Shown in pieces: positions 7,165 through 23,094 of a DNA stretch of 64,000 nt. Each line of letters begins with the position of its first letter. Position 1 is the first letter of the stretch. The position numbers and the translations under genes were made by a program. Below the pieces are notes generated by a model that was given only the letters and a program-made list of their open reading frames with translations, was not told the origin of the DNA and ran no database searches. This DNA is from Pelomonas sp. Root405. Its GTDB lineage: Bacteria; Pseudomonadota; Gammaproteobacteria; Burkholderiales; Burkholderiaceae_C. The stretch covers positions 15,036-79,035 of the forward strand of contig NZ_LMDU01000012.1 in the NCBI RefSeq assembly GCF_001425165.1, written 5' to 3'.

Positions 7165-7590
7165 ATGAAGCTCAATTTTCTTGTTCTCGCCGGCTGCCTC
7201 CTGGCGTCGGTCACGGCCAGCCAGGCCCAGGTCCACGACACCCACGCCTCGGAGGCCCCGCGCTGGCGCGTCGGCCTGACGCGCACCGACCTCGCCCGCC
7301 ACGATGTGTCGAAGACCGGCTACGAACTCATCCAGTCGCGCGTCGATTTCGAGACCGGCGTCGCTTCCCCTCGCCACTCCCATCCGGGAGAGGAGGTTGC
7401 CTTCGTGCTGGAGGGCGAGGTGGAGTACCAGTTGGCCGGCCGGCCACCGGTCACGCTGAAGGCTGGACAAGCGCTCGTCATTCCCGCAGGTATGCCGCAC
7501 GTCGCTCGCAATGTCGGCCAGGGCAAGGCGTCGGAGTTGGCCACCTACTTCGTCAGGAAGGATGCCCCCCTCGTCAAGATCGATGACTGA
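7165..7590 (+). CDS. Exported cupin-domain protein
   Basis: 141 residues from the ATG at 7165, which opens a typical signal peptide (LNFLVLAGCLLASVTASQAQ). The rest is a single cupin: metal-binding motif 1 with HSHPGEE and the Glu of FVLEGEVEY, then motif 2 with a late His (PAGMPHVARNVG). Small cupins of this type bind a divalent metal and act as dioxygenases, isomerases or binding proteins. The reaction is not predictable here. Its export matches the neighbouring signal-bearing hydrolase and DUF4148 protein. An upstream in-frame ATG (7105) would put an unlikely Arg/Pro-rich tail before the signal peptide. Confidence 0.8.
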   Translation: MKLNFLVLAGCLLASVTASQAQVHDTHASEAPRWRVGLTRTDLARHDVSKTGYELIQSRVDFETGVASPRHSHPGEEVAFVLEGEVEYQLAGRPPVTLKAGQALVIPAGMPHVARNVGQGKASELATYFVRKDAPLVKIDD

Positions 7591-7734
7591 ACGGGGCCGC
7601 TCGTCTCGCGCGGCGCTGCCGCACGCTGGAGATCCGCGCGCGAAGCGCCCCGCTCATTGCTCGCCATCGCAATACGCCGCTCATCAAGTCGCCCCGACCA
7701 AAGCGGGCGTCCAAACGCTGACAGGACCCTAAGC

Positions 7735-8562
7735 TTGAACCACTACTTCACCGCCCGAGACGGCGCGCGCATTTTCTACAAGGACTGGGGCAGCGGACAG
7801 CCCGTGGTCTTCAGCCATGGCTGGCCGCTCAATTCGGACAGCTGGGAATCCCAGATGATGTTTCTAGCCAGGCACGACTTCCGCACCATCGCCCATGACC
7901 GACGCGGCCACGGCCGCTCCACCCAGACCTGGGACGGCAACGACATGAACGCCTACGCAGACGACCTGGCGAGCCTGCTGGAAGTGCTGGACCTGCGCAA
8001 CGTGGTGCTGGTCGGGTTCTCCACGGGCGGTGGCGAAGTGGTCAGGTACATCGGGCGCCACGGCACCCGACGCGTCGCCAAGCTGGTGCTGGTGGGCGCC
8101 GTGCCGCCGCTGATGCTGCGTACGCCGGAGAACCTGGGCGGTCAGCCGCTCACCGTGTTCGACAGCCTGAGAAAGGCTGAGCTGGACAACCGCTCGCAGC
8201 TGTATGCCGACATCGCCGCCGGCCCATTCTTCGGGTTCAACCGGCCGGGTGCGACGCCTTCGCCGGCACTGATCGACCGCTTCGTCGCTCAGGGACTGCA
8301 GGCAAGTCACCGCAGCACCTACGAATGCATCGCGGCGTTCTCGGAAACCGATTTTCATGTCGATCTTCAACAGGTCAGCGTACCGACGCTGCTGGTGCAT
8401 GGTGACGATGATCAGATCGTTCCGCTTCACGCCTCGGCCAAGATGGCTGCCGCCGTGCTGCGCTGCTCAACGCTGAAAGTCTACGAAGGTGCTCCGCATG
8501 GGCTGCCTGACACGCACAAGGACCGCTTGAACGCCGACTTGCTTGAATTCGTCTCGTCGTGA
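7735..8562 (+). CDS. Cytoplasmic alpha/beta hydrolase paralogue
   Basis: 275 residues from TTG 7735, preceded by AGGA at 7723-7726. An in-frame ATG at 7657 would add a non-conserved Ser/Arg-rich tail. The protein closely resembles the exported hydrolase at 5587-6531 (shared [34 protein letters not shown] and [10 protein letters not shown]) but has no signal peptide. Triad: Ser96 in the elbow, Asp in GDDDQIVP and His in [11 protein letters not shown]. The pair looks like an in-cluster duplication with different cell locations. Cofactor-free chloroperoxidase/esterase chemistry is the family expectation and the substrate is unknown. Confidence 0.82.
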
Positions 8563-9894: not shown

Positions 9895-10091
9895 GTTGGA
9901 GTTGACCGGCGCGGAACGGCATTGCGCCGGGAGACGTACGCCCACCAGCACGCTTCGCAACGCAATGCCGTTGCGTGTCCGTGTCGAACGAATACGAAGG
10001 GACTTCCCACCTTCGGGCAAACGGCGTCAAAGCGCCTAGATTGGTGGTGTTCAAGATCATCAATCTGCAGCCATGTGAAAGGGGAAGCCCC

Positions 10092-11174
10092 ATGAACGAG
10101 ATTACCCGAGTCGGGGTCGATCTGGCCAAGCGCCTGATCCAGGTCCACGCCATCAATGTCGCCGGCCGCGTGGTCGTCGCCAAGGCCCTGCCTGCCGACA
10201 GGTTCGCCGCCTGGTGCGTGCAGCTGCCCGCCGGCTGCCTGGTCGCCATGGAGGCCTGCGCCGGCGCCCACCACTGGGCACGCAAGCTCTGCGGCTTCGG
10301 CCTGGATGCGCGCCTCATCGCAGGCCACTTCGTCACGCCCTACCGCATGTCCGGCAAGGGCGGCAAGAACGACGCCAATGACGCCGCCGCGATCTGCGAA
10401 GCCGCCGGTCGCCCGCACATGCGCTTCGTTCCCGTGAAGACGCCTGCGCAGCAAGCTCTGCTGGCCATCCACCGGCTGCGCGAGGGCTACAAGGAAGACC
10501 GCACCGCCTGCATCAACCGCATCCGCGGCCTGCTCACCGAGTTCGGCGTCGTCTTCGCGCAAAGCCCCGACGCGCTGCGCCTGGGGCTGGCCGACGTACT
10601 GGAAGACGCCAGCAACGAGTTGCCCGGTATCGCGCGGCTTGCGCTGCAGGAGGCGCGGCTGCAATGGATCGAACTGGAATGCCACATCGCCAGCTGCGAT
10701 GAGCGCACTACAGCCCACGTGCGCACCGACGAGCAAGCCAAGGCGGCGGCACAACTCAGCGGCATCGGCCCTGTGACCGCCTCGGCTTTGGTCGCCACGG
10801 TGGGCGACTTCACGCAGTTCAAGAACGGCGCGCAGTTCGGCGCCTGGCTTGGCTTGGTGCCTCGGCAGAACTCTAGCGGCGGCAAGACGCAGCTTGGGCG
10901 CATCACCAAACGCGGCGACGACTATCTGCGCACGCTGCTCATCCAAGGCGCGAAGTCGGCCGTGATGACAGCGCACAAACGCAAGGACGCCATCTCGCAG
11001 TGGCTGGTGCAGCTGCTGGCCCGCGTGGGCTGGCAGAAGGCGGTCGTGGCGTTGGCCAACAAAAACGCGCGCATCGTGTGGGCGCTGCTGGCCAAGGGGC
11101 GACAGTTTGATCCGAACTACGTGTCGGTCAAACCAGGCGTTGTGCCACCAATAGCGGCCTCGACTGCGGGCTGA
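10092..11174 (+). CDS. IS1111-group DEDD transposase
   Basis: 360 residues from ATG 10092, preceded by GAAAGGGG. The N-terminal RuvC-like DEDD domain shows GVDLAK (Asp10), AMEACAG (Glu54) and KNDANDAAAI (Asp94 and Asp97). The C-terminal transposase-20 domain has LSGIGPVTASAL, then LGLVPRQNSSGG with Ser261/Ser262 as the likely nucleophile, and GRITKRGDDYLRTLLI. IS110-family enzymes cut and rejoin with this serine, guided by a structured RNA from the element's non-coding end. The frame is intact from start to stop, so the copy is probably active. Longer in-frame starts run back through the inverted repeat and are unlikely. Confidence 0.92.
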   Translation: MNEITRVGVDLAKRLIQVHAINVAGRVVVAKALPADRFAAWCVQLPAGCLVAMEACAGAHHWARKLCGFGLDARLIAGHFVTPYRMSGKGGKNDANDAAAICEAAGRPHMRFVPVKTPAQQALLAIHRLREGYKEDRTACINRIRGLLTEFGVVFAQSPDALRLGLADVLEDASNELPGIARLALQEARLQWIELECHIASCDERTTAHVRTDEQAKAAAQLSGIGPVTASALVATVGDFTQFKNGAQFGAWLGLVPRQNSSGGKTQLGRITKRGDDYLRTLLIQGAKSAVMTAHKRKDAISQWLVQLLARVGWQKAVVALANKNARIVWALLAKGRQFDPNYVSVKPGVVPPIAASTAG

Positions 11175-14285: not shown

Positions 14286-15890
14286 TCACTCGCGACTCCT
14301 GACCTCTTCCCAGCTCAACCCGAATTTCAGAAGGTACTTGCGGAGCCGGTCCGCATCATTGATGACGGTGCGCTGTAGGCGAGATCGATCGAACAGCCGT
14401 CGGCCGGCATCTGAAAGCGTTGCTTCGCCGCGGCACATGCGAACTACCGCCTCCAGTTGAAGCCGGTCGAACAGGTCGAGATCCTTGGCAACTTGGTCCG
14501 ATAGCAGATCGTCGAGTCTGTCTTCGGAAGGCTCAGCATCCCCTGCCGGTTGCCAGAGCCATTGAAGCCGCTGTATTTCTGCTCCGACCAAGTCGACTGA
14601 TATCCGCCCGCCATCCGCGAGCGTCGCCATCCGTGTCACGCTGGCCATCAGGTCACGGAAATTGCCGCTCCAGAGCGCCTCCTTCGACCGAGCGAACTCC
14701 AGGTATTTCGCCTTGGCCTCGGCGTTGAAGCGAACGGCCCGTCCCGACTCCGCGGCCACGCGCACCAGCAGGTGCTCCACATTCGGCTCGATGTCTTCTG
14801 GCCGCTGCGCCAGGCCGGGAAGGGTGTACGACCAGAGGTTGATACGCGCGAACAAGTCTTCCCGAAACCGTCCCCGCGCCACGTCGATGCGCAAGTCCCG
14901 GTTGGTGCCGGCGATCAACTGGAAGTCGCTGCTGACCTCTCGGTCGCTACCCATCGGCAGGAAGCGCTTCTCCTCGACCGCCTTGAGCAGCATGGCCTGC
15001 TCATCAAGCCCGAGCTCGCCGATCTCGTCGAGGAACAGCACCCCCTGATGTGCCGTCCGCAGCAGGCCAGCCCGGTCCACCGCAGCGCCCGTGAACGCTC
15101 CCTTCTTGTGGCCGAACAGCGTCGACGCGGCACCGTCGCCGCGCAGCGTGGCGCAGTTCACCTCGACGAAGTCGCCCTGCACCTGGTGCCGCGACTTCTT
15201 GAGTTCGAACATCCGCCGTGCGAGATGGGACTTGCCGGCGCCCGTGGGCCCCGTCAGCAGGACCGGCGCCCGTGAGCGAACTGCGACGCGCTCGATCTCC
15301 TCGATGAGGGCGTTGAAACGCTTGTTGCGGGTCGCGATGCCGCTCTTCAGGAACTCCAGCGCCTCGGCATGAGCTTGGTCGAAGCGCCGCGCCAGTACGT
15401 CATAGCGTGAAAGGTCCAGGTCGATCAGGGTGTAGCTGCCCGGGTCACCTCGCTGCTGCTTCTTGGGCGGCGCTGTCTGCAGCAGCACCCCGGGGATGAA
15501 GCGCGACTCCACCATCAGGAACATGCAGATCTGAGCCACGTGCGTGCCCGTGGTGATATGCGCCCAGTACTGCTCATGGATTGGATCGAAGCGATAGCTG
15601 CGCGCCCAGTCGTACAGGGCGGCATACATCTCACCGAAGTCCCAAGGATCTGCGACGTCCATGGGGACGAGGTTGACGACGGTGTCCGGCGATACGTTGA
15701 CGATGTCGCTCGCAAGGATCTGGGCAAGCGCCTGGTGCCGCGTCGGATAAAGGAGTTCCAGGCGGTCGATCAGCGTGTCTTCGTGCTGTACCAACGAGAC
15801 CGTCGGACGCCATTTCTCCCAGCGGCCAGCGCCTTGGCCGGAGTCCAGTTGGGTACCCATGAACCCGACGACTACTTTCTTCTTGGTCAT
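14286..15890 (-). CDS. rtcR: RtcR, sigma54 activator of RNA-repair operon
   Basis: 534 residues. The N-terminal about 180 residues form the RtcR/CARF-like sensor domain (KKVVVGFMGTQLDSG, then HITTGTHVAQICMF). The AAA+ sigma54-interaction domain follows with Walker A GPTGAGKS, the GAFTGA loop that contacts sigma54, and Walker B LFLDEIGEL. The C-terminus is a short DNA-binding region (LFDRSRLQRTVINDADRLRKYL). In enterobacteria RtcR is activated by RNA damage, probably through RNA ends or fragments bound by the CARF domain. It is divergent from rsr, whose sigma54 promoter it should activate. A CTAG-N8-CTAG pair (15909-15924) just upstream could be its operator. Confidence 0.93.
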   Translation of the reverse strand: MTKKKVVVGFMGTQLDSGQGAGRWEKWRPTVSLVQHEDTLIDRLELLYPTRHQALAQILASDIVNVSPDTVVNLVPMDVADPWDFGEMYAALYDWARSYRFDPIHEQYWAHITTGTHVAQICMFLMVESRFIPGVLLQTAPPKKQQRGDPGSYTLIDLDLSRYDVLARRFDQAHAEALEFLKSGIATRNKRFNALIEEIERVAVRSRAPVLLTGPTGAGKSHLARRMFELKKSRHQVQGDFVEVNCATLRGDGAASTLFGHKKGAFTGAAVDRAGLLRTAHQGVLFLDEIGELGLDEQAMLLKAVEEKRFLPMGSDREVSSDFQLIAGTNRDLRIDVARGRFREDLFARINLWSYTLPGLAQRPEDIEPNVEHLLVRVAAESGRAVRFNAEAKAKYLEFARSKEALWSGNFRDLMASVTRMATLADGGRISVDLVGAEIQRLQWLWQPAGDAEPSEDRLDDLLSDQVAKDLDLFDRLQLEAVVRMCRGEATLSDAGRRLFDRSRLQRTVINDADRLRKYLLKFGLSWEEVRSRE

Positions 15891-16033
15891 ATCTATGGAG
15901 CTATCAGACTAGCGGAGATTCTAGTTTTTGCAAGATGATCGGCAAGCCCTCGTTTCCAGCTTTGCTCCATATTCGAAACTTTTCTCAATCGGATCAATGG
16001 CTTGGGCAGTGAATCGGCGGCGACTCAGAAAGC

Positions 16034-16048
16034 TGGCACACCGGTTGC
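16034..16048 (+). promoter_or_regulatory. Sigma54 (-24/-12) promoter of rsr operon
   Basis: TGGCAC (16034-16039), five bases, TTGC (16045-16048) is an exact match to the sigma54 consensus, 48 bases before the rsr start codon and downstream of divergent rtcR. It also excludes the longer in-frame starts of the rsr reading frame, since those lie upstream of the promoter. Confidence 0.88.
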
Positions 16049-16095
16049 AACAAGAACAGCACGAACAACAAGTTGAATGCGACGAGGAGAACCTC

Positions 16096-17670
16096 ATGGT
16101 CAACACGCAGCTCTTCCATACGATCAAAGGCGCCCTGCTGCCCGCTGCCACGGCGCGCAATGCTCACCAAGCTCCGGCCTACGCCTTCGGTCCCCGTCAG
16201 CAGCTGGCGCAACTGGCAGCCACCGGTTGCCTGAGCCAGACCTTCTACGCCAACGCCGAGAACCAGCTCGACCGAGTGCTGGCATTGGCCCAGAAGCTCG
16301 AGCCCGCCTTCGTCGCCAAGACCGCGATCTACAGCCGCCAATCCGGCCACATGAAGGACATGCCGGCTCTGCTGGCGGCCAGTTTGGCCGTGAGCGACGT
16401 CGCGCTGCTGAGCCAGGTGTTCTCTCGCGTTGTCGACAACGGCAAGATGCTGCGCAACTTCGTGCAGATCCTGCGCAGCGGCGCTGTGGGTCGCAAGTCG
16501 CTGGGTTCCCGCCCGAAGAAGCTGGTTCAGCACTGGCTGCTGACGGCCACCGAGAAGCAACTGTTGAACGCCGCGGTGGGCAACACGCCGTCGCTGGCCG
16601 ACGTGGTCAAGATGGTTCATCCCAAGCCCGCTGAGGCGTGGCGTGCGGCGTGGTTTGCATGGCTGATCGGCAAGCCGGTTGATGAAGCGACTTTGCCGCC
16701 CATCACCCTAGCGTTCGAGCGCTTCAAGCGTGACGTCGCCCAGGACGTGGCCGCCGAAGTGCCGGACGTTCCGTTCCAGATGCTGACTGCGCTGGAATTG
16801 ACGTCGGCGCAATGGGCGCAGATCGCCCGCTCGGGCTCGTGGCAGATGGTGCGTCAGAACCTGAACACCTTCGCCCGGCATGGCGTGTTCAACATCTCCG
16901 GTATGGCCGAGGCGGTGGCCGCCAAGCTGAGCGATGCGCAAGCCGTGGCCAAGGCGCGGGTGATGCCGTACCAGCTGATGTCCGCCTTCATGGCGGCCGG
17001 CGAGGCGGTGCCGGCCCAAGTTCGCGATGCGTTGCAGGATGCGATGGAACTGGCTCTGGTCAACGTGCCCAGCCTGGCGGGTCGTGTCGTGGTGTGCCCT
17101 GACGTGTCGGGCTCGATGAGCTCGTCCGTGACCGGCTATCGCGGCTCGGCGACCTCTAGCGTGCGTTGCATCGACGTGGCTGCCCTGGTGGCTGCTGCGG
17201 TGCTGCGCAAGAACCCGCAGGCCCGTGTGCTGCCGTTCGAGCAGGATGTCGTGAAGTTGCAGCTGAACGCTCGTGATTCGGTCATGACCAACGCCCAGGC
17301 GCTGGCCAAGATCGGTGGCGGCGGTACCAACTGCAGCGCGCCGCTGGCTCTGCTGAACCGCCAAGGTGCGGAGGTGGATCTGGTGATCCTGGTCTCAGAC
17401 AACGAGTCCTGGGTCGACGCCAACCGGCGCGGCGCGACGCAGACCATGCGCGAGTGGGAAGTGCTGAAGCAGCGCAATCCGAAAGCGCGCCTGGTGTGCA
17501 TCGACATCCAGCCGACGGCGACCACGCAGGCGGCGGAGCGGCACGACATCTTGAATGTCGGCGGCTTCTCGGACGCGGTGTTCACCATGGTGGCGAACTT
17601 CGCCGCCGGAAACATGGACGCCGAGCACTGGGTCGGTGAGATCGAAAAGGTGTCGTTGGCCGCCCAGTAG
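16096..17670 (+). CDS. rsr: Rsr, Ro60/TROVE-domain RNA-binding protein
   Basis: 524 residues from ATG 16096, behind GAGGAGA. The N-terminal about 320 residues are the TROVE HEAT-repeat ring that binds Y RNAs on its outside and 3' ends of misfolded RNAs through its hole. The C-terminal part is a von Willebrand A domain with an intact MIDAS start CPDVSGSMSSS (Asp336, Ser338, Ser340) and GGGGTNCSAPL later. Bacterial Ro proteins bind Y RNA and tether it to PNPase for RNA decay. Gene order sigma54 promoter-rsr-Y RNA array-rtcB is that of the Salmonella rsr-yrl-rtcBA type. Confidence 0.93.
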   Translation: MVNTQLFHTIKGALLPAATARNAHQAPAYAFGPRQQLAQLAATGCLSQTFYANAENQLDRVLALAQKLEPAFVAKTAIYSRQSGHMKDMPALLAASLAVSDVALLSQVFSRVVDNGKMLRNFVQILRSGAVGRKSLGSRPKKLVQHWLLTATEKQLLNAAVGNTPSLADVVKMVHPKPAEAWRAAWFAWLIGKPVDEATLPPITLAFERFKRDVAQDVAAEVPDVPFQMLTALELTSAQWAQIARSGSWQMVRQNLNTFARHGVFNISGMAEAVAAKLSDAQAVAKARVMPYQLMSAFMAAGEAVPAQVRDALQDAMELALVNVPSLAGRVVVCPDVSGSMSSSVTGYRGSATSSVRCIDVAALVAAAVLRKNPQARVLPFEQDVVKLQLNARDSVMTNAQALAKIGGGGTNCSAPLALLNRQGAEVDLVILVSDNESWVDANRRGATQTMREWEVLKQRNPKARLVCIDIQPTATTQAAERHDILNVGGFSDAVFTMVANFAAGNMDAEHWVGEIEKVSLAAQ

Positions 17671-17676
17671 GGCCAC

Positions 17677-17699
17677 GACACCGCCAATTGGAAGGTGTC
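17677..17699 (+). other. Stem-loop just after rsr
   Basis: GACACC (17677-17682) pairs with GGTGTC (17694-17699) around an 11-base loop, with no T-run, so it is not a standard terminator. It may be a processing or stability element between rsr and the Y-RNA array, or part of the first module. Confidence 0.5.
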
Positions 17700-17700
17700 T

Positions 17701-17758
17701 CAGGCGAATGCCTGCAGGAGTACAGCGCAACTTGGCCGCGCGGGCCCGCAAGCCCGCA
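17701..17758 (+). ncRNA. Y-RNA-like module 1 (degenerate)
   Basis: GGCGAATGCCTGCAGGAGTA at 17703 matches the 3' strand of the recurring module (GCGAATGCnGGnGGAnTACA) with GGAGTACA for GGACTACA. The 5' strand TTGTCGC is not clear. Downstream, GCGGG and CCCGC around CCCGCAAG form a T-arm-like hairpin with a non-standard loop. Confidence 0.4.
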
Positions 17759-17789
17759 ACGGAGAACTCGTAGGCCGCTCTTGCAACTC

Positions 17790-17859
17790 TTGTCGCCTGG
17801 GGCACCAATCTCACAACAGAACACGCGTCGTCGCGTGGCGAATGCAGGTGGGACTACAT
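17790..17859 (+). ncRNA. Y-RNA-like module 2
   Basis: TTGTCGCC (17790-17797) and GGCGAATGCAGGTGGGACTA (from 17837, ending TACAT at 17859) frame a loop that contains the small hairpin ACGCG-TCGT-CGCGT. CGCC and GGCG can pair to close the module. No T-arm was found after it. Confidence 0.6.
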
Positions 17860-17882
17860 CCAAAACGTGTCTCACCGACTGT

Positions 17883-17965
17883 TTGTCGCCACGCGGGGGC
17901 CACCAGGTTTTGCGCGAATGCTGGCAGGACTACATCTGGAGCGCCGGGGGTTCGAATCCTCAACC
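17883..17965 (+). ncRNA. Y-RNA-like module 3 with T-arm
   Basis: TTGTCGCC (17883-17890) and GCGAATGCTGGCAGGACTAC (from 17914) form the conserved pair. A tRNA-type T-loop GGTTCGAATCC (T-loop 17951-17957) follows about 20 bases later, as in bacterial YrlA RNAs, which carry a tRNA-like domain. The T-stem is imperfect (GGGG against CCTC). Confidence 0.6.
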
Positions 17966-18089
17966 GGGAAACCGGCATGGCAGTGTCTTGCCCCTCTTGT
18001 CGCGCCTTTTTGAGATGCCCTGCTGCGAATGCAGGTGGAACTACAGACTCTTAATCTCGTGGTCGCGGGTTCGAATCCCGCCGGTCCCA
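17966..18089 (+). ncRNA. Y-RNA-like module 4 with tRNA-Lys-like 3' half
   Basis: TTGTCGC (17997-18003) and GCGAATGCAGGTGGAACTAC (from 18025) enclose a 21-base loop. The 3' part has an anticodon-like loop CTCTTAA (CUU, Lys) closed by AGA/TCT, a perfect T-arm GCGGG-TTCGAAT-CCCGC and the acceptor strand CGGTCCC-A (18082-18089). GGGAaaCCG at 17966-17974 could pair with that strand if two A bulge. A Y RNA with a tRNA-mimic domain is the best reading. Confidence 0.65.
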
Positions 18090-18096
18090 AATCAGG

Positions 18097-18266
18097 GGGA
18101 CCGTAGCTCAGTTGGTAGAGCACGACGTTTCACCAATCCTTGTCGCGGCAAGGCATCACCCGTTCGGTGGTGAATGCGGATGGAATTACAGGTAGACGCA
18201 CGCGGCGCAAGCTGCGTGCCTTGGGAGCGATCCTGAGGCGCCCGGGTTCAAGTCCCGGTCCAGCAA
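18097..18266 (+). ncRNA. Y-RNA-like module 5 inside split tRNA-like RNA
   Basis: Opens with a canonical tRNA 5' part: GGGACCG, TA, then a D-arm of GCTC, AGTTGGTA and GAGC (18097-18121). TTGTCGC (18140-18146) and GTGAATGCGGATGGAATTAC (from 18170) follow, with hairpin CACC-CGTTC-GGTG between. Then come GGTAGACGCA, as in a tRNA-Leu D-arm, a strong hairpin (GCACGC 18198-18203 with GCGTGC 18214-18219), and a T-arm CCGGG-TTCAAGT-CCCGG (18242-18258). Acceptor pairing is incomplete. Confidence 0.6.
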
Positions 18267-18329
18267 TGGATGGCGGAGTGAAGATTTCATCGCCTCTGGT
18301 CACCGCACCTTTTTGATGGGAAGAACAAC

Positions 18330-19556
18330 ATGAACGATCAGAACTACAACGTCGAACAAGTCGCCGGCGGCGTGCCGGTGAAGATGTGGACCAAGGGCGT
18401 CCCCGTCGAGGACGCGGCTCGCGAGCAGCTCGCCAACGCCGCTCGTCTGCCGATCGTCTTCAAGCACATCGCGGCCATGCCGGACGTGCACCTGGGCATC
18501 GGCGCGACCGTCGGCTCGGTGATCCCGACGCTGAAAGCCATCATCCCGGCAGCCGTCGGCGTGGACATCGGCTGCGGCATGATGGCCGCGAAGACCACGC
18601 TGCGCGCCGAAGACTTGCCGGACAATCTGGGCCCGCTGCGCTCGGCCATCGAGAAGGCCGTGCCGCACGGTTCGGCGCCGAAGCACCGTGGCCGTGACCC
18701 CGGCAGCTGGGAGAACCCGCCCGAGACGGTGGACCAGATCTGGGCCACGCTGGTCGACGAGTTCAACGCGCTGTGCGAGCTGCACCCGCGCCTGAAGAAC
18801 ACGAACAACCGCAAGCACCTGGGTACGCTGGGCACGGGCAACCACTTCATCGAGGTCTGCCTCGACGAGGCTGGCTTCGTCTGGTTCATGCTGCACTCGG
18901 GCTCGCGCGGCGTGGGCAACGCCATCGGCACGCACTTCATCGAGCTGGCCAAGAAGGACGCGGAGCGCAACATGCGCAACCTGCCGGACAAGGACCTGGC
19001 CTACTTCGAGGAGGGCGCTCAGTACTTCGGCGACTACGTGCGCGGCGTGTCCTGGGCCCAGAAGTTCGCGATGAAGAACCGCGAAGTGATGATGACCAAC
19101 CTGATCGCCACCGTGCGCTCGGTCATCGCCAAGCCCTTCGAGGCTCATGTCGAGGCGGTGAACTGCCATCACAACTATGTGCAGCAGGAGCGCCACTTCG
19201 GCCAGGACGTGTTCGTGACCCGCAAGGGCGCGGTGAGCGCCAAGCGCGGCGAGATGGGCATCATCCCGGGCAGCATGGGTGCGCGCAGCTACATCGTTCG
19301 TGGCCTGGGCAACCCCGAAAGCTTCGAGAGCTGCAGCCACGGTGCGGGTCGCGTGATGAGCCGTACCAAGGCCAAGAAGATGTTCACGGTTGAGGACCAG
19401 GTCAAGGCGACGGAAGGCGTCGAGTGCCGCAAGGACGCGGACGTCATCGACGAGATCCCGATGGCCTACAAGGACATCGACGCCGTCATGGCCGCGCAGA
19501 GCGACCTCGTGGAAGTGGTGCACACCTTGAAGCAGGTGGTGTGCGTGAAGGGATGA
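18330..19556 (+). CDS. rtcB: RtcB, GTP-dependent RNA ligase
   Basis: 408 residues, the standard bacterial length. RtcB joins 2',3'-cyclic-phosphate or 3'-phosphate RNA ends to 5'-OH ends with GTP and Mn2+, through a guanylylated histidine. Seen: metal ligands Asp79 and Cys82 in VGVDIGCGM, the RNA/metal segment TGNHFIEV (169-176), HSGSRGVGN (189-197), and SCSHGAGR with the nucleophile His337. The last of these is the same position as in the E. coli enzyme. The start is supported by GGGAAGAAC before ATG. It is followed by a hairpin and the RlaP gene and belongs to the sigma54 operon. Confidence 0.96.
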   Translation: MNDQNYNVEQVAGGVPVKMWTKGVPVEDAAREQLANAARLPIVFKHIAAMPDVHLGIGATVGSVIPTLKAIIPAAVGVDIGCGMMAAKTTLRAEDLPDNLGPLRSAIEKAVPHGSAPKHRGRDPGSWENPPETVDQIWATLVDEFNALCELHPRLKNTNNRKHLGTLGTGNHFIEVCLDEAGFVWFMLHSGSRGVGNAIGTHFIELAKKDAERNMRNLPDKDLAYFEEGAQYFGDYVRGVSWAQKFAMKNREVMMTNLIATVRSVIAKPFEAHVEAVNCHHNYVQQERHFGQDVFVTRKGAVSAKRGEMGIIPGSMGARSYIVRGLGNPESFESCSHGAGRVMSRTKAKKMFTVEDQVKATEGVECRKDADVIDEIPMAYKDIDAVMAAQSDLVEVVHTLKQVVCVKG

Positions 19557-19611: not shown

Positions 19612-20427
19612 ATGAACAACGAAACCGTACTGAGCGCGCATCCCGTCTCCGACGAGATGCGCGCCACCGTCATCGAAAACCTCGCCGCGCTGGAGCGGCA
19701 GCATCAGGTGAAGGTGTTGTTCGCGTGCGAGTCAGGCAGCCGTGGCTGGGGTTTCGCGTCGCCGGATAGCGACTACGACGTCAGGTTCGTCTACATCAAC
19801 CGGCTGCCCTGGTACCTGACCGTGGAGCCGGGCCGCGACGTCATCGAGCAGCCCATCAGCGGCGAGCTGGACATCAATGGCTGGGACCTTCGCAAGACGC
19901 TGCAGCTGCTGCGGGAATCCAACCCGACGCTGCTGGAGTGGCTGCGCTCGCCCATCGTCTATCAGCAGGAAGCGGACTGGGTCGCTCGGCTGCGCACGCT
20001 GGCCGAGGAAGGCTTCTCGCCGGTGCGGGGCTATCACCACTACGTGTCGATGGCCAGGAAGAACCTGCGCGAGCACCTCTATGGCGAGGCCGTCCGCTAC
20101 AAGAAGTACCTCTATGTGCTGAGGCCCTTGCTAGCGGCCCGCTGGATACGCGAGGGGCGCGGTGTGCCGCCCATGCGCTTTGCAGAGCTGGCGAGCCAAA
20201 TCCTGACCGACAGCGCGGTGCTGACTGAAGTCAACGCGCTGCTGGAAGTGAAGATGCGCGCGGGTGAGTCTGCGACGAGCCCCCGCTGGGTGGGCATCCA
20301 CGACTTCATCGAAGCGGAGCTGGCCGAAGCCATGGACCACACACCCGACAAGGGCCCGAAGGCGGACGAGCGGCAGTTGGACCAGTACCTGCACGACGCC
20401 GCGCTGCGCTTCGACAGCCGAACCTAG
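19612..20427 (+). CDS. RlaP/YcgL-type nucleotidyltransferase
   Basis: 271 residues from ATG 19612, behind GAGGAAG. An in-frame ATG at 19597 and GTG at 19561 are less well placed, the latter inside the hairpin. The protein is a Pol-beta-fold nucleotidyltransferase of the PF10127 (RlaP, RNA-repair-locus-associated) family. Seen: GSRGWGFASPDSDYDVRFVY (residues 43-62), where the GS and the DSDYD acids form the NMP-transfer site. A helical C-terminal part holds YHHYVSMARKNLREHLYGE. Members are encoded in rtcB loci and probably add nucleotides to repaired RNA ends or act on tRNA. The exact reaction is unproven. Confidence 0.85.
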   Translation: MNNETVLSAHPVSDEMRATVIENLAALERQHQVKVLFACESGSRGWGFASPDSDYDVRFVYINRLPWYLTVEPGRDVIEQPISGELDINGWDLRKTLQLLRESNPTLLEWLRSPIVYQQEADWVARLRTLAEEGFSPVRGYHHYVSMARKNLREHLYGEAVRYKKYLYVLRPLLAARWIREGRGVPPMRFAELASQILTDSAVLTEVNALLEVKMRAGESATSPRWVGIHDFIEAELAEAMDHTPDKGPKADERQLDQYLHDAALRFDSRT

Positions 20428-20444: not shown

Positions 20445-21482
20445 ATGATTGAAATTGATGGCTCTGTCGGTGAGGGCGGAGGACAAATCCTGCGGACTTC
20501 GCTGGCCCTGTCCATGTGCACAGGCCAGCCCTTCGCGCTGAGCAAGATTCGCGCGGGCCGCGCCAAGCCCGGCTTGATGCGGCAGCACCTGACGTGCGTC
20601 AACGCGGCGGCGGAGATCTCTGGCGCCGAGGTAGAGGGCGCCGAGCTGAATTCGCAGTCCCTGACGTTCACGCCAGGCCGGGTCCTCGCGGGCGACTACA
20701 CCTTCAATGTCGGTACTGCGGGCAGCTGCACGCTCGTGCTGCAGACCGTCTGGCCGGCACTGATGCTCGCCGATGCAAACAGCCAGCTGAAGCTCAGCGG
20801 GGGGACACACAACCCCATGGCGCCGCCGTTCCACTTCCTGGAGCGCAGCTATGCGCCGCTGCTGCGCAAGCTCGGCGCGGAGGTCGAACTCGAACTGCGT
20901 CGCTTGGGCTTCTACCCGGCCGGCGGAGGCGAGATCGAAGTCAAGGTCTGGCCCGCGGGCGACCGACTGCAGCCTTTCGATCTGATCGAGAGGGGTGCCA
21001 AGCTTGAGGGGTACGCCGAATGCTTTGCGCCGGCGCTGCCGCGCTCGGTGGCCCGGCGCGAGCTGCAGCAACTGGGTGCGGACCTCGGCTGGAGTGACGA
21101 GCAGCTGCGCGAGGCAGCCAGCCGCCAGAACGAAGGCCCTGGCAATGCGCTTCTGGCGACGCTGGTGTACGAAAACGTCTGCGAGGTCGTCACCGGGTTT
21201 GGCGAGAAGGGTGTCAGCGCCGAGCAGGTCGCGCGCGACGTCGTGCGCGAGGTGCGGTCGTACCAAGTCAGTGACGGTGCGCTCGGGCCTCACCTGGCCG
21301 ACCAGTGGACACTGCCGCTGGCGCTTGCCGTGTGGCGGCGCGGGGGAGCGGCGTCATATACCTGCACGGAGCTGACGCCTCACGCGCTGACCAACTTCGA
21401 GACCATCGAGCTGTTCCTGCCGGTGAGGTTCTCGACGTCTGGATCAGGAAGCCACTGGTGCGTCAGCGTCGAGGCTCGCTGA
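20445..21482 (+). CDS. rtcA: RtcA, RNA 3'-terminal phosphate cyclase
   Basis: 345 residues, full length. RtcA uses ATP to convert RNA 3'-phosphates to 2',3'-cyclic phosphates, making ends usable by RtcB. Seen: IDGSVGEGGGQILRTSLALS at the N-terminus (residues 4-23), GGTHNPMAPP in the central part, GFYPAGGGEI, and the adenylylation motif GPHLADQW with His at about residue 283. Start ATG 20445 lies behind AAGAAGAGAACGAC. It is the last enzyme of the repair operon, 17 bp after the nucleotidyltransferase. Confidence 0.95.
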   Translation: MIEIDGSVGEGGGQILRTSLALSMCTGQPFALSKIRAGRAKPGLMRQHLTCVNAAAEISGAEVEGAELNSQSLTFTPGRVLAGDYTFNVGTAGSCTLVLQTVWPALMLADANSQLKLSGGTHNPMAPPFHFLERSYAPLLRKLGAEVELELRRLGFYPAGGGEIEVKVWPAGDRLQPFDLIERGAKLEGYAECFAPALPRSVARRELQQLGADLGWSDEQLREAASRQNEGPGNALLATLVYENVCEVVTGFGEKGVSAEQVARDVVREVRSYQVSDGALGPHLADQWTLPLALAVWRRGGAASYTCTELTPHALTNFETIELFLPVRFSTSGSGSHWCVSVEAR

Positions 21483-22434: not shown

Positions 22435-22511
22435 GCCTCGTTAGCTCAGTGGAGAAGAGCGCCGGCCTACGAAGCCGGAGGCCGGAGGTTCGACTCCTTC
22501 ACGAGGCGCCA
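22435..22511 (+). tRNA. tRNA-Arg(ACG)
   Basis: Cloverleaf read by hand: acceptor GCCTCGT/ACGAGGC (7 of 7), D-arm GCTC/GAGC, anticodon stem CCGGC/GCCGG with loop CTACGAA (anticodon ACG), T-arm GGAGG-TTCGACT-CCTTC, G73 and encoded CCA. It is the most canonical member of the array. Confidence 0.92.
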
Positions 22512-22518
22512 GTTTTAT

Positions 22519-22593
22519 GTCCCGTTGGACTTCGGGTGAGGTCCTCGGCCCTTCAAGCCGAAGAGGCGGGTTCGACTCCCGCACGGGATGCCA
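22519..22593 (+). tRNA. tRNA-like, putative Glu(TTC), unusual C33
   Basis: Acceptor GTCCCGT/ACGGGAT, a 3-bp D-stem GAC/GTC, anticodon stem TCGGC/GCCGA with loop CCTTCAA, T-arm GCGGG-TTCGACT-CCCGC, G73, CCA. The anticodon position holds TTC, but position 33 is C instead of the almost universal U. Identity is therefore provisional. It could be a decoy or a non-translating tRNA-like RNA. Confidence 0.75.
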
Positions 22594-22702
22594 GACCAGA
22601 AGCCTGTCGTCGAGCTCACGCTTCGACAGGCGCAAACCGGCCGCAACGATTGGGCGGCGTCGGAACCCGTCACCGACAACCTTTCGGAGCATCGAGAAGA
22701 AG

Positions 22703-22779
22703 CCGTGCGTGGTGCAACCAGCGAGCGCAACTGCTTTGGGAGCAGAGAGTTGCAGGTTCAAGTCCTGCCGCACGGACCA
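22703..22779 (+). tRNA. tRNA-Pro(TGG)-like, unusual D-loop
   Basis: Acceptor CCGTGCG/CGCACGG (7 of 7), D-stem GTGC/GCGC, anticodon stem CTGC/GCAG with loop TTTGGGA (anticodon TGG), T-arm GCAGG-TTCAAGT-CCTGC, A73 and CCA. The D-loop AACCAGCGA lacks the conserved GG that docks with the T-loop, and the outer anticodon pair is A-A. Confidence 0.75.
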
Positions 22780-22790
22780 GTTGAGAGTAC

Positions 22791-22866
22791 GTCGCCATAG
22801 CTCAGTTGGAAGAGCGCCGGTCTGTCGAACCGGAGGTCGCGGGATCGAGACCCGCTGGCGACGCCA
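22791..22866 (+). tRNA. tRNA-Asp(GTC), T-loop variant
   Basis: Acceptor GTCGCCA/TGGCGAC, D-arm GCTC/GAGC, anticodon stem CCGGT/ACCGG with loop CTGTCGA (GTC), T-stem GCGGG/CCCGC, G73, CCA. The T-loop is ATCGAGA, so position 54 is A rather than T. It lies 11 bases after the Pro tRNA. Confidence 0.85.
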
Positions 22867-22897
22867 TAGGCAAGAAAAGCGCAGCGTGCGTTTGGGT

Positions 22898-22970
22898 GTG
22901 GCCGTCGCCTAGCGGTCGAAGGCTCAAGGTTGTGATCCTTGCATCGCCGGTTCGAATCCGGCCGGCCACC
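22898..22970 (+). tRNA. tRNA-His(GTG)
   Basis: Acceptor GTGGCCG/CGGCCAC, D-stem GCCT/AGGC, anticodon stem CAAGG/CCTTG with loop TTGTGAT (GTG), T-arm GCCGG-TTCGAAT-CCGGC and C73. Base -1 is T, not G, and the sequence after C73 is CCCA rather than CCA, so the encoded 3' end is slightly irregular. Confidence 0.82.
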
Positions 22971-23094
22971 CCCAAGCGCATGCCACCCCACTGGGTGCGT
23001 CGCATAAACAGTGGATTGAAAAGCGCGTGCCTCGCGGCATGCCGGATCAAGCCAGGGAACTCCATCGTGCCCAGTCGAAGAAAGGGAGGACGCC

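Follow-up and report, generated by a model that had tools for sequence, protein, structure and literature searches.

Among the described systems closest to the locus analysed here is the Salmonella rsr-yrlBA-rtcBA operon, with its two Y RNAs, YrlA (RF02553) and YrlB (RF02565). According to excerpts of PMC7790460, Salmonella RtcR responds to cut tRNA, the tRNA-like domain of YrlA has been suggested to act as a competitive inhibitor of the nuclease, and no YrlA fragments were seen once tRNA had been cleaved. Passages from the same report and two others (PMC7790460, PMC9879122, PMC8394870) describe binding of Salmonella Rsr and YrlA to PNPase, and what bacterial Y RNAs do and how they are linked to RtcB are described as open questions in excerpts of PMC7790460 and PMC9879122. 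In Deinococcus radiodurans, the Rsr-bound Y RNA of RYPER serves as tether and gate (parts of PMC8394870 and PMC4726728), a system to which we liken the present locus by description only.

The window, that is, the whole 64-kb stretch of DNA that we analysed, belongs by its relatives to the Pelomonas/Roseateles neighbourhood, and the closest named Rsr is that of Pelomonas sp. Root1217 (96% identity). It contains an operon with the Salmonella order of RtcR, sigma-54 motif, rsr, Y RNAs, rtcB and rtcA, but here five Y RNAs are predicted instead of two, rlaP stands between rtcB and rtcA, and divergent tRNAs lie downstream. Judging from sequence, we consider it fairly probable that five genes for Rsr-binding Y RNAs form an array in the 659-bp gap from rsr to rtcB, within an RtcR/sigma-54 RNA repair operon, and that their tRNA-like heads are decoys or adaptors. 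The kind is one already known, and the repertoire looks like a set of new variants. The operon consists of the following features.

14286-15890, minus strand: rtcR, sigma-54 activator of the RNA repair operon (NCBIfam NF038308 equivalog, 820.3 bits, cut-off 650; Pfam RtcR domain).
16034-16049, plus strand: sigma-54-type promoter motif TGGCAC-N5-TTGCA (sequence match), starting 62 nt ahead of the rsr start codon.
16096-17670, plus strand: rsr, Ro60-like protein (Pfam vWA_Ro60, 74.6 bits, cut-off 27.7; TROVE, 30.2, cut-off 23; PDB 2nvo (Rsr), E 4e-21).
18330-19556, plus strand: rtcB, RNA ligase (Pfam RtcB, 425.5 bits, cut-off 27).
19612-20427, plus strand: rlaP, nucleotidyltransferase (Pfam RlaP, 326.1 bits, cut-off 23).
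20445-21482, plus strand: rtcA, RNA 3'-terminal phosphate cyclase (TIGR03399, 356.5 bits, cut-off 250).

The divergent rtcR, the sigma-54 motif (the promoter being called by motif only), rtcB and rtcA mark an RtcR-controlled RNA repair operon, with rlaP and rtcA downstream of rtcB. TGGCAC-N5-TTGCA is a putative sigma-54-type promoter motif. Of the 80 loci compared (the window plus 79 named loci), 56 have such a motif in the 600 nt ahead of rsr, at a median distance of 63 nt. A simple scan of the plus strand of 15880-18400 gives no intrinsic terminator. About 1 kb behind rtcA lie five tRNA genes (22435-22972; Arg-acg, Glu-ttc, Pro-tgg, Asp-gtc and His-gtg), each with only 48-59 of its 76-77 nt identical to the same-anticodon copy elsewhere in the genome, and these are possibly spare tRNAs of the repair locus. 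On the other side of rtcR, a 399-aa ORF (9975-11174) resembles an IS110-type transposase.

Within the gap, the five predicted bacterial Y RNAs share one stem and differ in their heads.

17701-17799, plus strand: Y1, Y stem with a three-way junction and no T loop (scan score 18; covariation; found by covariance models R1 and R2).
17835-17892, plus strand: Y2, minimal Y RNA with weak YrlB similarity below the cut-off (scan score 18; found by R1 and R2).
17911-18006, plus strand: Y3, Y stem with a T arm and a GAAA-capped stub (scan score 17; covariation, 47 distinct sequences).
18022-18149, plus strand: Y4, YrlA RNA with a permuted tRNA-Lys-like head (scan score 18; match to RF02553; covariation, 61 distinct sequences).
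18167-18306, plus strand: Y5, permuted tRNA-Leu-like (type II) head whose D loop holds the Y stem (scan score 17; covariation, 22 distinct sequences).

Each unit runs in the order GCGAATGC ... TTGTCGC, starting with N5-GAAUGC and ending with UUG-UC-N5 or a variant of it. The ends pair over 7 bp, an 8-bp inner stem begins after AUGCN, and an AUGC/UUG internal loop lies between the two helices. All five units have this bacterial Y RNA stem, one outer pair being missing in Y3, and they lie beside a Ro60/Rsr gene as Y RNA genes do, rsr being directly upstream, though its protein is below the NCBIfam Rsr equivalog cut-off (78.6 against 900). An earlier note on this DNA had counted about five repeated modules between rsr and rtcB, and the count stands far beyond chance: the units score 17-18 of 18 on a stem descriptor whose best value elsewhere in the window is 14, and 1000 dinucleotide shuffles of the gap reach 15 at most, in two cases, the other 998 having no unit at 15 or above. 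The note had read the module as TTGTCGC, a spacer and then GCGAATGC. Both motifs are where it placed them (five of the GCGAATGC type), but the phase is wrong and describes the junction between two units; we reject it because the two motifs pair within one unit in reverse order. What it called a degenerate copy at 17701 is the full unit Y1 (7+8 bp, score 18).

Over the 80 loci, 255 descriptor matches of at least 16 fall inside rsr-rtcB gaps and five outside (858,791 bp, two strands). All of the latter are upstream of rsr and belong to three Cardiobacterium loci, where R1 and R2 also see arrays. The descriptor is imperfect, giving a false 16 within the rsr coding sequence of each of two contigs discussed below (L189 and L190).

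Y4 is the only unit above an Rfam cut-off (YrlA, 74.5 against 69 bits). With the YrlA model, Y2 reaches 28.9 bits and Y3, far below the cut-off, 24.8; with the YrlB model Y2 scores 21.9 bits against a cut-off of 97, which leaves it outside both families by Rfam score, its likeness to YrlB being that it is a short Y RNA whose stem follows the same logic. Y1 and Y5 are absent from Rfam matches at E up to 5, and the YrlA and YrlB cut-offs let through just one of these five units. Covariance models made from relatives recover the whole array. R1, built from 23 Y5-type sequences (22 Y5-type modules and that of locus L050, the Y5 of the window included), finds all five units with a weakest E of 2.4e-6, Y5 scoring 151.3 bits as a training sequence; R2, built from 48 Y3-type sequences including the Y3 of the window, does so with a weakest E of 1e-5. 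Searched over 90 sources, R1 and R2 give 317 and 299 matches at E up to 0.01, and over the whole genome R1 at E <= 0.001 finds four of the five array units and no match elsewhere. A candidate second YrlA copy in the genome (L002, C14:48625, 40 bits) was rejected as the junction of two tandem tRNA-Val genes. None of the units ranks as a tRNA gene: ARAGORN calls no tRNA in the gap, and the acceptors of Y4 and Y5 are sealed.

The five-unit array is not unusual for its lineage, as 44 of the 80 rsr loci have four or five units. By gap scan, zero, one, two, three, four and five units are found in 6, 4, 13, 13, 26 and 18 loci, respectively. The six zero-unit loci are from Neisseria and Cardiobacterium, with no rtcB found behind rsr, and the models find units upstream of rsr there. 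When modules are typed by their best match to the five units of the window, types rise strictly from Y1 to Y5 in 53 of the 70 loci with at least two units, and exactly as 1-2-3-4-5 in 12, the window among them; most of the 17 exceptions show type 4 more than once or follow a different order. Rsr is matched at E up to 0.001 in 7 of 369 genomes in a class search and 14 of 398 in a phylum search, each count taking in the present genome as well as several matches that are weak or partial, and L176, a locus of a different class in the phylum, has seven units. Phage records with an Rsr match number 344, 342 of them at less than 60% identity, and three were studied further; no Rsr relatives were found in IMG/VR contigs.

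Comparative structures were derived from 22 Y5-type sequences plus that of L050 (22 distinct), all 21 Y1-type sequences, all 48 Y3-type sequences above thresholds (47 distinct) and 62 of the 70 Y4-type modules (61 distinct), the latter being those among 263 modules that match Y4 of the window best, at an identity of at least 0.74. Covariation is 0.218 against 0.114 in shuffles for Y1, 0.185 against 0.109 for Y3, 0.239 against 0.104 for Y4 and 0.307 against 0.143 for Y5, and 0 of 500 shuffles reach the observed value in each case, counts that overstate significance because the aligned sequences are related. The Y1 structure is 99.0% paired, that of Y3 (26 pairs) 93.2%, that of Y4 (37 pairs, 19 with two-sided changes) 97.8% of cells and that of Y5 (41 pairs, 29 with two-sided changes) 93.7%. 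Two of five measures for Y1 are not above shuffles (7 pairs with two-sided changes against 5.4, and 14 further pair types against 16.1). Lowest-energy folds of the window sequences give another head for Y3, a Y4 without the 3-bp anticodon-like arm and a Y5 with a broken inner stem, and the fold energies of Y1 and Y3 are ordinary (z -1.7 and -1.3).

Y4 is like YrlA in its stem, T arm, sealed acceptor and D arm, in the same permuted order inside the Y stem, and unlike it in standing in a five-unit array and in having a 13-nt anticodon-like hairpin for which the Rfam consensus holds no positions. Its head is made up as follows.

18045-18057, plus strand: anticodon-arm-like hairpin AGA-CUCUUAA-UCU (a 3-bp/7-nt hairpin in 65 of 70 Y4-type modules, two of the 65, with stems GAT/GTC and AGT/GTT, being doubtful).
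18065-18081, plus strand: T arm (sequence and comparative alignment).
18082-18103, plus strand: sealed 7-bp acceptor stem CGGUCCC ... GGGACCG with an 8-nt loop (covarying helix).
18106-18121, plus strand: D arm (nearly invariant, with a two-sided change in one pair).

A lower helix, CGU/ACG (89% paired), comes between the hairpin and the T arm in head order. The arrangement shows the predicted head to be a circularly permuted tRNA, opened between the D and anticodon arms and with its acceptor sealed. De-permuted, Y4 is identical at 62 of 72 nt to tRNA-Lys(UUU) of its own genome and at 60 to tRNA-Lys(CUU), the top two of 49 distinct tRNAs, and its score of 103 against the former compares with at most 55 in 60 shuffles. 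The 65 hairpins have the stems AGC/GCU (30), AGA/UCU (27), GCA/UGC (3), UCG/CGA (2) and others (3), and three pairs at one register would be expected by chance in 4.7%. For this arm 65/70 is the unselected figure, whereas the 94% pairing of the anticodon helix in the Y4 alignment is biased upward because the eight omitted modules include all five without a hairpin. In the loop, U33 is kept in 61 and A37 in 56 of the 65, and positions 34-36 are variable; therefore the shape is conserved and the anticodon identity is not, and for the latter reason no single nuclease is indicated. The loop equals an anticodon loop of its own genome in 29 of 65 modules, against a mean of 17.9 and a maximum of 26 in column shuffles; counted as distinct loops the figures are 7 of 32 against 7.4, and we do not claim that the loops are exact real anticodon loops. 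Of 15 YrlA-like units in loci from the class and phylum searches, 7 pass a looser hairpin test (four offsets, U33 required), some of them doubtful.

The head of Y5 is put together differently, with the Y stem inserted in the D loop.

18197-18199, plus strand: 3' strand of the D stem, pairing with 18273-18275.
18200-18217, plus strand: arm at the anticodon position, 7 bp with a GCAA loop and no anticodon (81.8% of cells paired).
18220-18237, plus strand: long variable arm (85.9% of cells paired; two-sided changes in all 7 pairs).
18242-18258, plus strand: T arm (comparative alignment).
18259-18270, plus strand: GNRA-capped acceptor stub UCCA-GCAA-UGGA (two-sided changes in all four pairs).
18273-18275, plus strand: 5' strand of the D stem (comparative alignment and split-D-stem test).

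The D stem is closed by GGUAGACGC, with which the head begins, and GGCGGAG, towards its end. Taken together, these arms show the predicted head to be a circularly permuted tRNA-Leu-like body with a long variable arm, an opening in the D loop and a sealed acceptor, and its best tRNA of the same genome is Leu(UAA) (70.8, against at most 59 in 60 shuffles). The split-D-stem test took 46 modules with the head motif, excluded 11 without the U8-R9 register and tried three registers for the 3' strand; the stem is found at the tRNA register in 33 of the 35 remaining modules, as GCG/CGC in 22 and GCU/AGC in 11, which is a two-sided change. Stub loops are of the GNRA type in 26 of 43 tallied Y3-type and 23 of 33 Y5-type modules; the underlying head classifier assigned most YrlA heads to 'T+stub' and overlooked some of the T arms, and was used only for the stub loops and the split-D-stem input. 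Circularly permuted tRNA genes have their 3' half ahead of the 5' half. The two heads have the same half order, but they lie inside a Y stem, have a loop-sealed acceptor and are opened at two different points, after the D arm in Y4 and in the D loop in Y5.

In Y3, a T arm (17947-17961) and a GAAA-capped stub (17964-17975) form a three-way junction, with a closing helix paired in only 75%. As a recognisable tRNA of its own genome the Y3 head was rejected (37.3, against a shuffle maximum of 45.6). Y1 has the Y3 layout without the T loop, as a three-way junction of the closing helix, a 6-bp hairpin and a short stub, and Y2 is a stem with a short loop; both are without a T arm. The T arms that the earlier note saw in three modules are those of Y3, Y4 and Y5. 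It was also right that a Lys-like anticodon loop, an acceptor strand and a D arm are present, but all belong to one unit, Y4, and not to separate modules. Its proposal of an enlarged family of tandem Y RNAs whose tRNA-derived heads differ agrees with five stem units and the permuted Lys-like and Leu-like heads of Y4 and Y5, and the two supports it looked to are both found, the YrlA covariance match in the gap for Y4 and compensatory changes in related genomes for Y1, Y3, Y4 and Y5.

A related unit occurs beside yrlA. Two contigs filed under Salmonella and Escherichia phage names (L189 and L190) contain rsr, YrlB (105.5 bits) and YrlA (70.9 bits). By its YrlB match L189 appears to be enterobacterium-like, and searches of E. 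coli genomes (near mode) and plasmids (distant mode) gave no match to its rsr-rtcB stretch. Both contigs have a further, unannotated unit, in L189 at 924-1034 after YrlB and YrlA, which reaches 31.7 bits with the YrlA model, below the cut-off, and is the best match of R1 in the record (45.8 bits). The head of this unit starts with GGUAACGC and includes a T arm and a sealed, long acceptor; as a D 5' strand cannot be clearly made out, its place in the D-loop-opened class is likely and no more. A third Y RNA may have gone unnoticed in enterobacteria.

As to function, the Y RNAs would be transcribed along with rsr and rtcBA from the sigma-54 motif when cut tRNA activates RtcR, their common stem would dock on Rsr, and the heads would present a tRNA shape to tRNA-recognising enzymes; the earlier note had proposed that such mimics might be presented to RtcB, RlaP or RtcR. 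Because the sealed acceptors are unchargeable as they stand, the heads would have a role as decoys or adaptors, and the fact that two of them are rearranged, sealed tRNA copies suggests tRNA decoys or adaptors made while tRNAs are cut. Anticodon nucleases could be occupied or soaked up by Y4, which might otherwise recruit RtcB, and the other Y RNAs could bring PNPase, RlaP or tRNA-modifying enzymes. More speculatively, and with odds that we regard as rather low, RNA-repair operons of Proteobacteria might encode a repertoire of sealed, circularly permuted tRNAs with two alternative opening points and different source tRNAs, some with anticodon-shaped loops, on Rsr-binding stems; these would serve as decoys or sentinels for anticodon nucleases, being cut like tRNAs, kept in one piece by the Y stem and then rejoined by RtcB from the same transcript, with a third, D-loop-opened Y RNA beside yrlA in an enterobacterial contig.

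An equally tentative alternative is that the heads are mainly PNPase adaptors as in RYPER, the Y RNAs tethering Rsr to PNPase, the heads being nuclease-resistant docking modules and their variety tuning substrate choice. Such is the known function of the D. radiodurans Y RNA, and excerpts of PMC7790460, PMC9879122 and PMC8394870 report the binding of PNPase by Salmonella Rsr and YrlA. The GNRA-capped stubs of many Y3- and Y5-type modules look like stability features, but the conserved 7-nt loop (U33, A37) and the whole D/T/acceptor core are left unexplained, and no PNPase is among the five operon proteins checked. It is improbable that the heads are inert relics, captured tandem tRNA gene junctions acting as structural filler on an Rsr-binding gate stem, given that compensatory changes across genera maintain the helices of the heads, the split D stem and the anticodon-like arm. 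As an origin, capture of a tandem tRNA gene junction by an Rsr-binding stem would fit both the 40-bit YrlA-model match to the tandem tRNA-Val junction and the remnants of CCA after the acceptor, which are present in 9 of 16 YrlA-like heads of class and phylum loci against 0 of 68 parsed Y4-type heads (of 70) in the main set; Y1 and Y2, without tRNA features, also suit relics. That the gap holds degenerate tRNA pseudogenes or a chance repeat and no Y RNAs is, despite the tRNA pieces present, effectively refuted by five full Y stems, a YrlA match above the cut-off, recovery of all five units by R1, the lack of ARAGORN tRNAs and similar arrays in other genera.

If the array is, as we favour, a set of Rsr-bound Y RNAs with decoy or adaptor heads, then one stem with several tRNA shapes, one of them anticodon-like, makes binding of the heads to RtcB, PNPase and anticodon nucleases directly testable, and head swaps on the array could likewise show an effect on survival after tRNA damage.

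Several further elements accompany these operons in relatives. Arrays of 5-23 tRNA genes lie upstream of rsr or beyond rtcR in six of them (L048 2225-4325, L072 445-4338, L060 120-2560, L050 1293-2501, L053 1509-2499 and L052 130-561), L048 and L072 being loci in which no rtcR was found; we compare these arrays to the Anabaena trn array, which is co-regulated with rtcB by TrcR according to parts of PMC10272220. ARAGORN calls tRNAs among the Y units of L101 (6831-6907), L103 (4326-4576) and L112 (1341-1414), which may be true tRNAs or Y-head junctions. In 14 of 80 loci (for example, L039 7075-7305) a conserved element of about 237 nt follows the Y array or lies inside it and, by eye in 12 aligned copies, has tRNA-Ala-like ends with a G3-U70 acceptor, a T arm and CCA; an ARAGORN call of tmRNA on this element in the L092 gap was rejected (Rfam, 15.1 bits against a cut-off of 47). 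In L036, a 256-aa ORF (7234-8004) lies between Y5 and rtcB. Among 12 loci scanned, two have an RNase P RNA gene immediately behind rtcR on the same strand (L075 2846-3165 and L088 581-920).
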